Shown here: positions 42,849-57,566 of the stretch, one piece after another
Layout: each line of letters opens with the position of its first letter
Position numbering within the stretch: the stretch's first letter is position 1
Origin: Kineobactrum salinum
GTDB taxonomy: Bacteria; Pseudomonadota; Gammaproteobacteria; Pseudomonadales; Halieaceae
NCBI RefSeq assembly: GCF_010669285.1
Contig: NZ_CP048711.1
Coordinates: 2,294,001 to 2,358,000, forward strand
DNA length: 64,000 nt
Reading direction: 5' to 3'
The notes under the pieces: generated by a model
The model's database searches: none
The model's input: only the letters and a program-made list of their open reading frames with translations
What the model was told of the DNA's origin: nothing
Position numbers and translations under genes: made by a program

Positions 42849-43102
42849 TGGCGCGGAGAAAGCCAACCCGAGAACCACGTTGCCGGAGCGAAAGCGGAGG
42901 CTTTAGCTCAACGGATGCACCGAGAACGGAATTGCTTGGCAAACCTAAACTGGCCACTTTGAAAGTTGCACTTTTAGAAACGAAGTGACGTTTCATTCCC
43001 TGAGGTGGTTGGTCAAGTATTTTGAGCCACTCCGCTGATCAGAGTCGAGCCGCGCCGGTTGAGCGCTTTCAAGTATCTGGATTCGTCGTAAGCTGTGTTG
43101 GA

Positions 43103-44281
43103 CTACCAGCAACGGTAGAGCACACGGATCCACTTGTAGGCGAGGGAGCGTACAGCTGCTTGGTGCCCTTTGCCCTTCTCTCGTTGCTGACGATAGTAGA
43201 CCTCTGCCCAGTATGAGTAACAAATACTATGACTCGCCCATTCAATGAACGTCTGCCGAAGGAAGCGTGGACACTGGGTTCGCCAGTGCACCCATTTCTT
43301 CTGGCCACTGCGCTCGGTGACAGGTGCTACTCCCACATACATCTGAATTTCATCCGCACTCTGAAAGCGATCGCGCTGCTCCCCGAAAGCCACCAATAGT
43401 CGCGGGGCTAAAGCTGCCCCGGCTCCCGGCAGGTTTTCAAATAACTCATAATCCGGGTGACCAACAGCTAGAGATTCAATCTCCGTATCGTACTGTTTAA
43501 TGGCACGTAGTGATACTTCTAGCTGCTCAGCGAGTACCTGGACCTTACGTGCGTAGGCTGAGATCAACGGCTTGTCGACAGTCAATGGGCGGGCGCTTCT
43601 GATGCCCCTCAGACGCTGTTCTTGTACTTCCTTTCGGTTAGCGCGATGCTCTTGGAAGAACTTTTTCAGCGTTTTGGTATCGGCACTCTGCACTTTTTCC
43701 AGGCTAGGCCAGCGTTGGAGAAAGCTGCAGAATAAAACAGTATCAAGTCGCTGGAACCAGTCCAGGCACTGGGGATAGTACTGCTTTAGTGCGGCATTCA
43801 ATCGGTTGGTGAGTCGCACTTTATCCGCCACCAACTGCCGCCGGTGTTCTACCAGCAGTTGAAGTTCTCTCAGCTGGGGGCCTTGGGCTTTGAGTGTCTG
43901 GAAGCGCTCGGGATGTTTCAACACCAGGTCGAGGGCGAGCTCTGCGTCAGAAGGATCGTCTTTGGCTCCACTGGGATGTAACAATTTACGGTAACGAGCG
44001 AGTGTGCTGGGGTTGACCGGGACGATTTCGATGAAATCGTATTTCTGTAGTGCGTACACTACTGGCCCGCGGGTAAGTTCGACAATGATCGCGACAGGGC
44101 CGCCAAAACGCTGGTACAACGACAAGGCCCACTCTTCAATCTTGTCTACCCGGTGGGGAATGCATGCGAATTCGCGCTCTGAAAAACCTGCTCTCTGAAT
44201 ACAGGCATCGTGCTTTTTATCGGCCCAGTCCAATCCAACAAATGCCTTGAAATAGCTTTCGGATATAGCTTCCATGAGCAA
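43103..44281 (-). CDS. IS110-family DEDD transposase
   Basis: A 392-residue recombinase. The N-terminal DEDD RuvC-like domain has FVGLDWADKKHD, IIVELTRGP and AKDDPSDAEL. The C-terminal Tnp_20-type domain has ENLPGAGAALAPRLLVAFG and YVGVAPVTERSGQKK. No frameshift, so it may be active. Confidence 0.93.
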   Translation of the reverse strand: MLMEAISESYFKAFVGLDWADKKHDACIQRAGFSEREFACIPHRVDKIEEWALSLYQRFGGPVAIIVELTRGPVVYALQKYDFIEIVPVNPSTLARYRKLLHPSGAKDDPSDAELALDLVLKHPERFQTLKAQGPQLRELQLLVEHRRQLVADKVRLTNRLNAALKQYYPQCLDWFQRLDTVLFCSFLQRWPSLEKVQSADTKTLKKFFQEHRANRKEVQEQRLRGIRSARPLTVDKPLISAYARKVQVLAEQLEVSLRAIKQYDTEIESLAVGHPDYELFENLPGAGAALAPRLLVAFGEQRDRFQSADEIQMYVGVAPVTERSGQKKWVHWRTQCPRFLRQTFIEWASHSICYSYWAEVYYRQQREKGKGHQAAVRSLAYKWIRVLYRCW

Positions 44282-44540
44282 TTCCCTCCCAAAATGCTAC
44301 AGTCCATATAGGGACATGCATGCCCGAGTTCGGCGAAAGTGATATAGGGGCCGGTGCAACGGCAATCCCTGAGTATTCGTTAATGAACTCGAGCGCACCT
44401 GCTGGCTCGAAGATGAAACGTCGATCGTCTGGCGATTCCGCGGAGACATTCGTAGCCAGCAGGTGCATGTCCCGCCTTGGCTGGCAGTTGCCTGCCAATT
44501 ACCGTAGTAAAGCCCAAGAAACGGGACTGAGTATCTATAT
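44282..44540 (-). ncRNA. Candidate bridge RNA of the IS110 element
   Basis: The non-coding left end contains a perfect 13-bp stem (44395-44407 GCACCTGCTGGCT with 44454-44466) around a 46-nt loop. In this loop TTCCGCGG (44436-44443) equals the target core TTTCCGCGG rebuilt at the insertion site. A smaller hairpin lies near 44346-44371. IS110 enzymes are known to use an RNA from this region whose loops pair with target and donor DNA. Which part is the donor loop is not worked out. Confidence 0.5.
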
Positions 44541-44682
44541 CCGCGGAAACGTTTTCCGGTTATAGATGGCACCCGGAACAGAGGCACTGAGATATAAGCA
44601 GGGTGGGTTTCCCGAGACCCGGATCTCTGATCGCAGTGGCCAAATTGTGGTGAACTCCATCTCTCGATTCCTTGGTGGATCC

Positions 44683-45288: not shown

Positions 45289-46092
45289 TCACGCTGCTTC
45301 AAACTCCACCGGACTTTGATACCCGAGTGATGAGTGTAATCTCTCATTGTTGTAAAAACGAATGTAATCTCTAATCGCACCTCGTAGCTGCCCATCCGTC
45401 TCAAACTTATAGCGATGGTACATATCCGACTTCATCGACTTGTACCATGACTCCATGTGCGCGTTGTCATTCATCCGGCGCGGTCTGTTCATGCTTTGGA
45501 TAAAATCAGCCTTTTTCAATGCCTTCTTAAAATCTGCAGCCAGATACTCCGTGCCTCGATCCGTATGAAAGTAAATTTCTCCAGCCGGGCGCCTTAGATT
45601 CAACGCCTGTTGCAACGCCCGACGCGTTAGCGCCGAGGTGCGCTCTGCGCCGTATGACCAACCCAGCAGTCGTCTGGTATGTCGATCCATCACCGTGGAC
45701 AGATATCGGCGCTGTCCGCCCGCTTTCAGGTAGGTGACATCGCCTACCCACACCTGATCCTTCCTGGTGATCTCCAGCTCATGAGTCTGGTTCTTTACAC
45801 TGCCGAAGAAGCGACTTGTACCAGGCGTCCGCCGATACAGCGTGCTGGAACAAGCCTTGATACCGTTTTCGCGCATGATCCGCTCTACACGGCGTCTGCC
45901 CACCGTCTCGCCGGCTCTCCTGAGCACCCGGTGAATCCGCGGACTTCCATAGGTGTGCTGACTCTTGTCATAGGCAGTCTCGATCTTCTTCAACAAGGCC
46001 TTATCAACAATTTCCCGCTCGCTCGGTGGTCTCTCCCGCCAGGCGTAGTATCCACCCCGAGTAACTCCATATAGCTCGCACATGCGCTTCAA
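45289..46092 (-). CDS. IS3-family transposase OrfB
   Basis: A 267-residue DDE integrase. It has an HTH_21-type N-terminus (KKIETAYDKSQHTYGSPRIHRVLRR) and the rve catalytic core (VWVGDVTYLKAGGQRRYLSTVMD, YFHTDRGTEYLA, DNAHMESWYKSMK). It is made as an OrfAB fusion by slippage near 46164-46170. Confidence 0.93.
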   Translation of the reverse strand: MKRMCELYGVTRGGYYAWRERPPSEREIVDKALLKKIETAYDKSQHTYGSPRIHRVLRRAGETVGRRRVERIMRENGIKACSSTLYRRTPGTSRFFGSVKNQTHELEITRKDQVWVGDVTYLKAGGQRRYLSTVMDRHTRRLLGWSYGAERTSALTRRALQQALNLRRPAGEIYFHTDRGTEYLAADFKKALKKADFIQSMNRPRRMNDNAHMESWYKSMKSDMYHRYKFETDGQLRGAIRDYIRFYNNERLHSSLGYQSPVEFEAA

Positions 46093-46445
46093 CGCGAACG
46101 TCCCTTTGTGGTAGTCGATGAAGGCGAAGACTTCGCTTTTCGAGTGGAAGTGTACTCGATGGCTTTTTTTAAAAGGTCATGCTCCACCTGCAGGCGCTGA
46201 TAGTCTCTTTTAATGCGCCGCAGCTCCTTTGACTCAGCAGCAACCTCTTTATTGATTTCTGCACCCTTGGTCATAATCACCCCCTCTCGAACCTGCTTTC
46301 GCCATCGCGACAGCATGAAGGGATGAATATACAGAGATTCGGCAACATCCTGAATCGCCACTCCCGGTAATTCACTCAGCTTGACTGCTGTTGCTTTGAA
46401 TTCATCGCTGTATTTATACATCGTTCTGGGACCTGGTTTCGGCAT
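46089..46445 (-). CDS. IS3-family transposase OrfA
   Basis: A 118-residue protein with an HTH_8-type DNA-binding part (YSDEFKATAVKLSELPGVAIQDVAESLYIHPFMLSRW) and a leucine-zipper-like coil (KRDYQRLQVEHDLLKKAIEY). A run of seven A followed by G on the minus strand (46164-46170) is a typical -1 slippage site for OrfAB. Confidence 0.9.
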   Translation of the reverse strand: MPKPGPRTMYKYSDEFKATAVKLSELPGVAIQDVAESLYIHPFMLSRWRKQVREGVIMTKGAEINKEVAAESKELRRIKRDYQRLQVEHDLLKKAIEYTSTRKAKSSPSSTTTKGRSR

Positions 46446-51863: not shown

Positions 51864-53222
51864 GATAACGTAAAATATTTTTCGCACATTTGAAGAGGCG
51901 GTGGCCTCCCGAGTTGATACGATTGAGTTGCGAAGCTTAATCCCACAACAACGGAGAACCACCACCATGAGCAACAATAGCGAGAACAAGAGCTTGGGTA
52001 AAGTCGTTCAGATCAACGAGGCAAAGATACAGGATCACCTCGGTGAACTGGTCCGTGGCACGGTTGAGGAGACGCTGAATGCGATGCTGGATGCCGAGGC
52101 AGATGCTATGTGCGGGGCCCAGCGTTACGAACGCAGCCCTGATCGCATAGATACCCGCGCCGGTCACTATGAGCGCAAATTCCACGCCAAGGCCGGCGAA
52201 GTCACCCTGAAGATGCCCAAGCTGCGCAAGCAGACCTTCGAGACCGCCATCATTGAACGATATAAGCGCCGCGAGACCTCAATTGAAGAGGCCCTGATGG
52301 AGATGTACCTGGCCGGCGTTTCCGTCCGCCGGGTCGAGGATATCACCGAGGCCCTGTGGGGAACCCGCGTCAGCTCCGGCACCGTCAGCAAGCTGAACAA
52401 GAAGGTCTACAAGCATATTGAGACCTGGCGGAATCGTCCTATCCGGGGCGAGTATCCCTACGTCTACCTGGATGGTATCGTCTTGAAGCGAAGCTGGGCC
52501 GGCGAGGTGCGCAACGTTTCCGTATTGGTCGCTGTCGGCGTCGACCAGGAGGGGTATCGGCATATTCTCGGCGTTCAGGAAGGGCACAAGGAAGACAAAT
52601 CCGGCTGGGGCAGCTTCCTGGAGCATTTGAAATCGCGAGGCTTGAAGGGTATCAGAATGATCATTTCTGATGCCTGCATGGGCTTGAGTGAATCCGCTGC
52701 CGAGTATTTCCCAGAGGCGGATTGGCAGCGCTGTACAGTCCATTTTTATCGCAACGTGTTCAGCCATGTGCCCAGGGCGAAGATGGCCCTGGTTTCCGCT
52801 ATGCTCAAGGCTATCCATGCCCAGGAGAGCCGCGAGGCGGCACAGGATAAAGCGATGAAGGTTGTCGAGGAACTCAGAACCATGCGGCTACAGAAGGCTG
52901 CTGATTTGGTGGAGCGCTGCATCGACGAGACCTTCGCCTTCTACAGCTACCCACAGACCCACTGGCTGAAGATTCGTACCAATAACCCGCTGGAGCGGAT
53001 CATGCGAGAAATTCGGCGCCGTACCCGGGTTGTCGGCGCGTTCCCTGATGGCGAGTCCGCTGTGATGTTGGTAGGGGCGAGGCTCCGCCACATCGCGAGC
53101 ACCAAATGGGGAACCCGTAAGTACATGTCGATGGACTGGTTACGGCAGCAGGATATAGAGGCTCATCAATCAGCTTGAAGGTCATCGCCTCGAAAAAAGT
53201 GCGAAAAAATATTTACACTACC
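51864..53222 (+). mobile_element. IS256-family insertion sequence
   Basis: 1359 bp, with imperfect inverted repeats (left GATAACGTAAAATATTTTTC; right similar) and a 7-bp duplication GTCCCAT (51857-51863 and 53223-53229). It has one intact transposase gene. Confidence 0.85.
51967..53178 (+). CDS. IS256-family transposase (mutator type)
   Basis: About 403 residues from ATG 51967 (MSNNSENKSLGKVVQINEAK). The DDE mutator domain includes VYLDGIVLKRSWAGEV, IRMIISDACMGLSESA (second Asp), DWQRCTVHFYRNVFSHVPR (the C-x2-H signature) and NNPLERIMREIRRRTRVVG (catalytic Glu). Intact. Confidence 0.94.
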   Translation: MSNNSENKSLGKVVQINEAKIQDHLGELVRGTVEETLNAMLDAEADAMCGAQRYERSPDRIDTRAGHYERKFHAKAGEVTLKMPKLRKQTFETAIIERYKRRETSIEEALMEMYLAGVSVRRVEDITEALWGTRVSSGTVSKLNKKVYKHIETWRNRPIRGEYPYVYLDGIVLKRSWAGEVRNVSVLVAVGVDQEGYRHILGVQEGHKEDKSGWGSFLEHLKSRGLKGIRMIISDACMGLSESAAEYFPEADWQRCTVHFYRNVFSHVPRAKMALVSAMLKAIHAQESREAAQDKAMKVVEELRTMRLQKAADLVERCIDETFAFYSYPQTHWLKIRTNNPLERIMREIRRRTRVVGAFPDGESAVMLVGARLRHIASTKWGTRKYMSMDWLRQQDIEAHQSA

Positions 53223-54120: not shown

Positions 54121-55445
54121 CACTACTGTCCGGTTAACTAAGTCCATGATTCACGTAACTGTATGAATAGGCTAATTTTTTCGCCAAATATTTGTGGTGT
54201 CGACTTGAGCGCGACTGCGCTTTCAGGTGACCTTCCGGGAATCTATTCCCAGAGGACTCCCCATGTACACCGGCAAAACTCTGTTTGCGCAGTTGATGGA
54301 CTTCCTGCCATGGACTACGTTCACGCGAATCGTCGATCGGTATGCAGGAAATCGTCGTGTACGCACGCTGCCGTGCACCGAACATTTTCGTGTGCTGGCA
54401 TTTGCGCAACTGACCTACCGGGAAAGCCTGCGCGATATAGAAGCGTGTCTTTCGGCGCAATCGGCCAAGCTCTACCACATGGGCATTCGTTCGCCGATCA
54501 AGCGCTCTACGCTGGCCGATGCCAACGAGCGGAGAGACTGGAGAATCTACGCCGAGTTTGCGCAACGGCTGATTGCACAGGCCCGCAAGCTCTACGCCGA
54601 AGAAGACCTGGGGCTCGATCTGTCGAACACGGTTTACGCGCTCGACTCGACAACCATCGACCTCTGCCTTTCGCTGTTTCCGTGGGCACCATTTCGAAGC
54701 ACCAAGGCAGCGGTCAAAATGCACACGCTGCTGGACCTGCGCGGAAATATCCCGAGTTTTATACATGTTTCCGACGGCAAGATGCACGATGTCAACGTGC
54801 TCGACCTGCTGATTCCGGAGCCGGCAGCAATCTACGTAATGGATCGTGCTTACCTCGATTTCGAACGGCTCTTTGGGTTGCACGACGCCGGAGCGTTCTT
54901 TGTCACCCGCGCCAAATCGAATACCGACCTGCGGCGGATCTACTCTGCTCCGAGCGACCGGACGCAGGGCATTATCTGCGATCAGACGGTGGCGCTGTCG
55001 GGATTCTACAGCCACAAACATTATCCCCACCATCTGCGTCGGATTCGCTTCAAAGATCCAGAGACAGAGAAAACACTCATTTTCCTGACCAACTTGTTCG
55101 GTCCTCCACCAATAACCATCTGCGAGCTGTACAAGGCCCGCTGGCAAGTCGAGTTATTTTTCAAATGGATCAAGCAACATCTCCGGATCAAGAAGTTCTA
55201 CGGCACATCGGAGAACGCGGTGAAGGTGCAAATCTGGACCGCTGTGTCGGTATATGTGCTCGTCGCTATCATCAAAAAGCGCCTCGATTTGCAGCCTTCG
55301 CTCTACACTCTATTACAGGTATTTTCCATCACCCTGTTCGAAAATATCCCTTTAAACAAGGACTTTCTCGACACCAAACAGATCCTGGAGGATGACATGA
55401 TTTCTAACCAACTGAATTTGTTCCATAATTAACCGGACAGTAGTG
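54121..55445 (+). mobile_element. IS4-family insertion sequence
   Basis: 1325 bp with perfect 17-bp inverted repeats (CACTACTGTCCGGTTAA) and a 9-bp duplication ATCATATCC (54112-54120 and 55446-55454). One transposase gene, intact. The perfect ends suggest a recent insertion. Confidence 0.95.
54227..55432 (+). CDS. IS4-family transposase (DUF4372 type)
   Basis: A 401-residue DDE transposase with an N-terminal DUF4372-like domain (FLPWTTFTRIVDRYAGNRRV, LAFAQLTYRESLRDIE). In the catalytic core, the first Asp is in YALDSTTIDLCLSLFPW, the second in YVMDRAYLDF and the Glu in YKARWQVELFFKWIKQHL (the Y-R-E-K type segment). Translation could start at ATG 54227 or ATG 54263 (MYTGKTLF). Confidence 0.94.
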   Translation: MTFRESIPRGLPMYTGKTLFAQLMDFLPWTTFTRIVDRYAGNRRVRTLPCTEHFRVLAFAQLTYRESLRDIEACLSAQSAKLYHMGIRSPIKRSTLADANERRDWRIYAEFAQRLIAQARKLYAEEDLGLDLSNTVYALDSTTIDLCLSLFPWAPFRSTKAAVKMHTLLDLRGNIPSFIHVSDGKMHDVNVLDLLIPEPAAIYVMDRAYLDFERLFGLHDAGAFFVTRAKSNTDLRRIYSAPSDRTQGIICDQTVALSGFYSHKHYPHHLRRIRFKDPETEKTLIFLTNLFGPPPITICELYKARWQVELFFKWIKQHLRIKKFYGTSENAVKVQIWTAVSVYVLVAIIKKRLDLQPSLYTLLQVFSITLFENIPLNKDFLDTKQILEDDMISNQLNLFHN

Positions 55446-57276: not shown

Positions 57277-57566
57277 TAGCGCTGGGAAAGCTTACCCGAC
57301 CACCACGTTGCCAGAACGAAAGCGGAGGCTTTAGCCAAAAGGATGCACCGAGGACGAAGCTGCTTGGCGCTTCCACACTGACCACATTGAACACGGGCAC
57401 CTTCAGAAACGAAGCCGCGTTTCCGCGGAAACGTTTTTCGGTTATAGATGGCACCAGGAACAGAAGCACTGAGATATAAGCCGGGTGAGGCTCCCGAGAC
57501 CGGAATCTCTGATCGTAGTGGCCGAATTCTTGTGAACTCCATCTCTCGATTCCTTGCTGGATGCGC
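57277..57566 (-). other. Duplicated cassette, copy B (uninterrupted)
   Basis: The intact counterpart of the cassette broken by IS110 at 42.8-44.7 kb. The best frame on the minus strand (57212-57469) gives 85 residues, starting LLFLVPSITEKRFRG; the last third is attC translation. Whether it encodes a protein is doubtful. The gap 57181-57663 holds this cassette with its two attC sites. Confidence 0.55.

Follow-up and report, generated by a model that had tools for sequence, protein, structure and literature searches.

The 64-kb stretch of DNA analysed here (the window) contains a 1,545-bp insertion sequence (length without the 2-bp core) that we assign to the IS110 group. Its left end is predicted to encode a bispecific bridge RNA (seekRNA) acting by the mechanism proposed below, in a lineage whose RNA appears to have been retargeted; judged from sequence, we give this reading a probability of about 0.94. 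The sequences offer an RNA structure with compensatory changes, four putative guides, two copies inserted at an identical base, an exact target that is still empty, conserved residues of catalytic type and both halves of a candidate promoter, and transcription, the ribonucleoprotein and the order of strand exchange are presumed by analogy with IS621 and ISEc21. The preliminary description had recognised an IS110 bridge-RNA candidate here, an identity supported by our covariance model (R1), the four guides and the donor loop; it understated the case, having missed the right target guide and the donor loop. Coordinates of all features are given in Table 1.

Table 1. Features of the insertion sequence, its predicted bridge RNA and its target sites in the window
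Feature	Position	Strand	Basis
IS110-group insertion sequence	42995-44539	-	ends set against second copy and uninterrupted copies
IS110 recombinase gene	43103-44275	-	Pfam and NCBIfam matches
Core GA, left junction	44540-44541	-	overlap of occupied and empty sites
Core GA, right junction	42993-42994	-	overlap of occupied and empty sites
TTGACC, -35 half of putative junction promoter	43011-43016	-	joined-ends sequence
TATAGA, -10 half of putative junction promoter	44534-44539	-	joined-ends sequence
Bridge RNA core: closing stem, target-binding loop, donor-binding loop	44311-44474	-	model R1, RNAalifold, fold z
Target-binding loop: 13-bp stem, bulged A, CGAA/UUCG, 46-nt loop	44395-44466	-	stem search, structure counts
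Donor-binding loop with CGAA/UUCG and inner hairpin	44322-44393	-	structure counts, RNAalifold
Small hairpin separating the two target guides	44424-44436	-	helix 3: 100% of cells paired; 2/4 pairs changed on both sides
Left target guide UCUCCGCGGA, 9/10 to left target plus core	44437-44446	-	guide scoring
Right target guide GACGUUUC, 8/8 to core plus right target GAAACGTC	44415-44422	-	guide scoring
AU adjoining right target guide, positioned like the IS621 handshake bases	44413-44414	-	by eye; IS621 rule as in the available text
Left donor guide CUCAGGGAUU; element right end reads CTCAGGGAAT	44364-44373	-	sequence match
Right donor guide CUAUAUC, complement of core plus left end GATATAG	44341-44347	-	sequence match
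Occupied junction copy of target	44537-44550		match search
Uninterrupted target palindrome CGTTTCCGCGGAAACG in cassette-like repeat	57418-57433	.	match search

The insertion sequence and its predicted upstream RNA

The recombinase matches the Pfam families DEDD_Tnp_IS110 and Transposase_20, and NCBIfam NF033542, "IS110 family RNA-guided transposase", with 171 bits against a cut-off of 140. Its start, ATG 44275, was picked by eye and is immediately preceded by GGGAGGG; the list of open reading frames instead begins at TTG 44281. Across 14 aligned sequences, that of the window included, residues D13, E63, D104, D107, S320 and G321 do not vary. The corresponding catalytic-type residues of IS621, in the part of its description available to us, are D11, E60, D102, D105, S241 and G242; because a PDB sequence search with the recombinase returned one weak match only, not named IS621, the equivalence of the two sets is proposed by motif. 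Together, the profile matches, the alignment and this motif-based equivalence indicate a DEDD recombinase with a Tnp-domain serine, as in the IS110 group. The long non-coding end of the element comprises 264 bp and lies upstream of the recombinase gene. From a look at their translations, three transposase-like genes near the element (45289-46445, 51901-53178 and 54227-55432) are presumably IS3-, IS256- and IS4-like.

At gathering scores Rfam found nothing in the window, and a covariance model of our own (R1) was therefore built from an alignment of the window RNA and 12 relatives (alignment A1, 13 sequences), which is also the basis of the structure. The perfect 13-bp stem (44395-44407/44454-44466) enclosing 46 nt, reported in the preliminary description, is exact. 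The closing stem, the target loop and the donor loop are all backed by alignment A1, where both partners have changed in 14 of 43 stem pairs; 34 cells are changed on both sides, compared with 10.7 ± 2.6 in shuffles, none of which (0/500) reached the observed count. This covariation signal is lost when the partners are slid by one to three columns. A measure of further pair types was not above the shuffles (25 vs 23.4; 97/500). RNAalifold, run without structure input, produced nearly the same helices, dropping two pairs and adding five, and the fold z of the window RNA is -6.2.

Model R1 has a single match in the window, of 174 bits, which is the minus-strand segment 44311-44474 (the window being one of the 13 training sequences). 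It matches at full length in 70 of 70 further loci. One of these is the second copy of the element itself and 69 are relatives, taken from the best 80 of 104; of these 80, the remaining 11 are training members of the model. The same loop is found in all 70, and the model thus places the loops where they had been proposed and not elsewhere. It also gives 11 weak partial antisense matches to the target loop. The window element and all of the best 80 of 104 relatives carry the RNA upstream of the gene (69 relatives by the model, 11 by alignment), and this position, together with the long upstream non-coding end, is that of the IS110 group.

Guides, insertion sites and proposed mechanism

The guides are arranged in the order left target, right target, left donor, right donor (LTG, RTG, LDG, RDG), the left guides corresponding to the bottom strand and the right guides to the top strand. 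As in the IS110 group, the target loop matches opposite strands of the insertion site with its left and right guides (9/10, a single position of the left guide being mismatched, and 8/8), and the donor loop fits the joined element ends. It carries CUCAGGGA, as does the right end of the element, and CUAUAUCA, the complement of the joined-ends sequence TGATATAG. Both comparisons, of the target guides with the site and of the donor loop with the element ends, had been proposed in the preliminary description. By eye, the AU at 44413-44414 is complementary to the donor end AT, and the donor-loop handshake base is unpaired with the target of the window element.

The match between loop and target from which the first reading started is real: GATTCCGCGGAGAC at 44434-44447 (plus strand) is two mismatches from GTTTCCGCGGAAAC, and its segment TTCCGCGG corresponds to the left target guide of the bridge RNA. 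Allowing two mismatches, GTTTCCGCGGAAAC occurs three times in the window (in the loop, at the occupied left junction and in the copy at 57.4 kb) compared with 0.22 expected, and 0 of 100 shuffles reached three. This left match fits both strands because the target is a palindrome; the orientation is settled by the right target guide. The copy at 57.4 kb, from which the original target was to be reconstructed, is indeed uninterrupted (57419-57432), but it is not the exact target, its right half fitting the right guide at 6/8 positions.

Two copies of the element are present in the genome, with 1 difference in 1,545. The second occupies a diverged copy of the repeat, with an insertion point and orientation identical to those in the window. 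It is the only other genomic copy found and has the same core, so that none of the copies found lies in a target lacking the core. Both occupied copies fit the right target guide at 8/8. CGTTTCCGCGGAAACG is uninterrupted at four places in the genome, two of which were scored for guide fit. The empty copy at G000:C1:2828550, approximately 1.5 kb from the second element copy, fits the right guide at 8/8 in the occupied orientation compared with 7/8 in the opposite one.

Of the 83 elements tried (the best 80 of 104 relatives, the two own copies and the closest relative, G014), ends were found by simple rules in 70, with 45 distinct loops, and 13 were dropped. Guides fit their own left flanks better than those of other elements (7.38 vs 4.96 of 9), and likewise their own right flanks (6.18 vs 4.52 of 8); 0 of 20,000 permutations reached either value, in a scheme that ignores kinship among elements. 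The right-hand score is lowered by about 4 of 70 right ends that look mis-picked. At the left junction of these 70 elements the dinucleotide varies (GA 23, AA 16, CT 8, others 23), at the right junction it is GA in 55, and left and right dinucleotides are equal in 20. A left core supplied by the target and a right core supplied by the donor would yield these dinucleotides.

When the right and left ends are joined they read TTGACC-18-TATAGA; at the left junction of the inserted element, the -35 position is occupied by ATAACC. By tally, 63 of the 70 elements have a spacing of 17 or 18 nt between TTG and TATAG. The circle would carry a junction promoter, as in the IS110 group, and such promoters are reported for IS621 and ISEc21 in the available text of the original papers (PMC11208160, PMC11208158, PMC11187229). 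In the mechanism that we propose, joining of the ends in the excised circle would form this promoter, from which the RNA and then the recombinase would be transcribed. The first loop would find the target through bottom-strand pairing of the left guide at TTTCCGCG-GA and top-strand pairing of the right guide at GA-AACGTC; the element's own joined ends would be held by the second loop. The recombinase would then swap strands at the GA core, without duplication beyond the core.

The preliminary description had only the left guide, whose match is modest alone, dinucleotide-preserving shuffles of the loop giving an equally long left-target run in 46 of 5000 cases. With a palindromic target, which leaves the strand of that match ambiguous, the RNA could be real and its TTCCGCGG match the chance product of a near-palindromic loop. 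We consider this extremely unlikely, given that left and right runs occurred jointly in 1 of 5000 shuffles and that both arms vary with the flanks over the 45 loops. Moreover, G014 (72% identical), which has its left guide in common with the window element, shows a 10/10 left flank in another site, its right flank fitting at only 6/8. The second copy might instead reflect duplication of the cassette copy or gene conversion and not an independent RNA-guided insertion. In agreement with this, 28-40 nt of flank around the junctions are identical in both copies; however, the flanks are far more diverged (117 identities, 24 mismatches and 18 gaps in the left 150 nt; 183 identities in the right 200 nt) than the element with its single difference, and such an origin seems to us unlikely. 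Separate insertions guided by the bridge RNA are the reading we favour for the two copies.

Target classes among relatives

In a transposase tree of 40 sequences the window element and G014 form one clade (support 100/100), and the 11 elements whose right flank reads [T/G]GTTA (L030, L049-L052, L054, L055, L057-L059 and L066) are set apart by a single branch (98/94; found in 99% of bootstrap trees), with L060, unlabelled, falling among them; L147 and L148 also belong to this clade. The three target labels, assigned by eye, require two changes on the tree, the fewest possible. These relationships suggest two or more changes of target class, one in the window clade to a palindrome within a cassette-like repeat and one in another clade to the R' end of integron attC-like sites. 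On inspection, the left guide of the window element is shifted 5' by one base relative to that of AGCGG-type relatives. Comparison with the relatives suggests that the change of landing site came via a change of the RNA, and that both target guides were altered in the window lineage, which thereby left the AGCGGAC-type sites of most sampled relatives.

Enterobacterial relatives (L014-L048 and others) have the right flank AGCGGAC and left flanks GAGCGAGA or GTGCCAGA. A relative from Cupriavidus is of the GACCC left type, and its right guide could not be fitted by eye. A relative on a Leptolyngbya plasmid (L149; 49% identical to the L050 protein), left aside as lacking a TATAG left end by rule, has a right-guide-like CTAACATAT that matches its right flank ATATGTTAG.

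Parts of the target repeat match 10 places in the genome, four of which are the two halves beside the insertions. A 121-nt piece of the repeat matches in 18 of 100 family genomes (the own genome included), in many of them only through the short palindrome. In genome G004, repeat copies at C10:2371 and C10:4589 lie less than 3 kb from an integron integrase (C10:5106-6041; 421 bits, cut-off 265), and attC-like repeats were picked by eye around the target repeat. As these two observations are its support, the repeat is called a cassette but not a proven one. No integron integrase passes the cut-off in the own genome, nor in the sister genome of the same genus (G001), where a 4-kb stretch holds the palindrome four times. 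About 6 kb from the second copy, an 84-aa frame (L096 14351-14470, equal to G000:C1:2837350-2837469) that shows a short match to the integron integrase family is perhaps an integrase remnant.

The palindrome is enriched and clustered in the genome (16 places with at most two mismatches vs 2 for a reversed control), and for this reason a ParB- or Noc-type binding site, which we take it to resemble, was considered. This idea was dropped: three of the clusters or single places (3641745-3642399, 1807528/1808182 and 2069768) lie in DUF222/HNH or HNH genes, where the palindrome encodes Val/Ala-Ser-Ala-Glu-Thr (frames assigned by hand). In L136 (3246-3915), L137 (4029 and 4683) and L138 (2769), the palindrome or a close variant of it lies within DUF222/HNH genes and encodes a Ser-Ala-Glu-Thr stretch.

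Several empty sites of the [T/G]GTTA clade resemble integron attC, with insertion one base before GTTA. Joined empty sites of L051, L054, L055 and L058 form hairpins in which TAAC pairs with GTTA at the insertion point (z of -3.2, -5.3, -4.1 and -2.0); that of L050 keeps the outer pairs (z -1.2), and the other six of the eleven are not clear by the hairpin rule. Two elements on Pseudoalteromonas plasmids have the right end of the attC clade and left flanks that are attC-like by eye, with no annotated integron-type integrase within 6 kb of either. When 369 genomes of the class were searched for attC-clade elements, only the window's own genome matched at E <= 1e-120.

Relation to known systems

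According to the available text, the left guides of IS621 correspond to the bottom strand and the right guides to the top strand, in the RNA order LTG, RTG, LDG, RDG (PMC11208160, PMC11208158). The window element resembles IS621, as described there, in having the RNA in the left end, a target loop followed by a donor loop, the same guide strands, a putative junction promoter and a DEDD plus Ser recombinase. It differs in its core, which is GA and not CT, and in a stem that closes both loops, whereas IS621 is described, in the parts seen, with a 5' stem-loop and two loops; its recombinase is also too distant for a PDB sequence match to IS621. With ISEc21, compared by description and not by sequence, it shares the upstream non-coding region and the size class (345-385 aa vs about 390 in the window; PMC11187229, as far as available). 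ISMch6, a redirected relative of ISEc21, likewise illustrates natural redirection, but the available account gives three changed bases in one guide (PMC11187229), whereas in the window element both guides appear changed and the target is the repeat palindrome.

The second clade recalls the IS1111 elements at attC (ISKpn4 and ISPst6), whose RNA also guides insertion at integron cassette sites; in the text available these have the RNA downstream and the guide order reversed, and the window element meets a cassette-like-repeat palindrome and not attC (PMC11187229). With its DEDD recombinase and the integron-associated targets of its lineage, the element might itself be placed in the IS1111 group, beside these attC-targeting insertion sequences. 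We judge this very unlikely: the RNA is upstream in the window and in all of the best 80 of 104 relatives and not at the downstream end, the left-then-right guide order is that reported for IS110 in the sources as available, and no long subterminal inverted repeat (usually 11-13 bp) is seen by eye at the ends of the window element. A 5-bp subterminal repeat, GAATG/CATTC, is present in some relatives.

As an IS110-group insertion sequence, the window element is unusually complete natural evidence for a known, recently discovered mechanism and not for a new one. Guide RNAs of the bridge RNA/seekRNA type are published, as are cases of natural redirection (ISXne4, ISMch6) and the targeting of attC by IS1111 elements, in the accessible text of these papers (PMC11187229, PMC11208160; attC targeting in PMC11187229). 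What is instructive is that both guides appear retargeted and that IS110-group elements probably occur at attC; in a literature search covering few subscription papers, we found no account of upstream-RNA elements of the IS110 group that target attC. Bridge RNAs are under development as programmable recombinases, and few natural cases show both target guides changing while the remaining RNA and the donor loop stay. Since the RNA, two occupied targets, exact and near-exact empty targets and relatives with other guides are available together, the rules of register, of core and mismatch tolerance and of orientation can be read from them. It is fairly probable, in our estimation, that one upstream-RNA IS110 lineage was reprogrammed at least twice in both target guides, onto the attC R' end, as a counterpart independent of the IS1111 elements at attC, and onto the palindrome of the cassette-like repeat. 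If true, the lineage would offer a series of bridge RNAs retargeted in nature and settling in integrons again and again. The data also suggest that IS110-group elements, not IS1111 alone, use integrons as landing sites.
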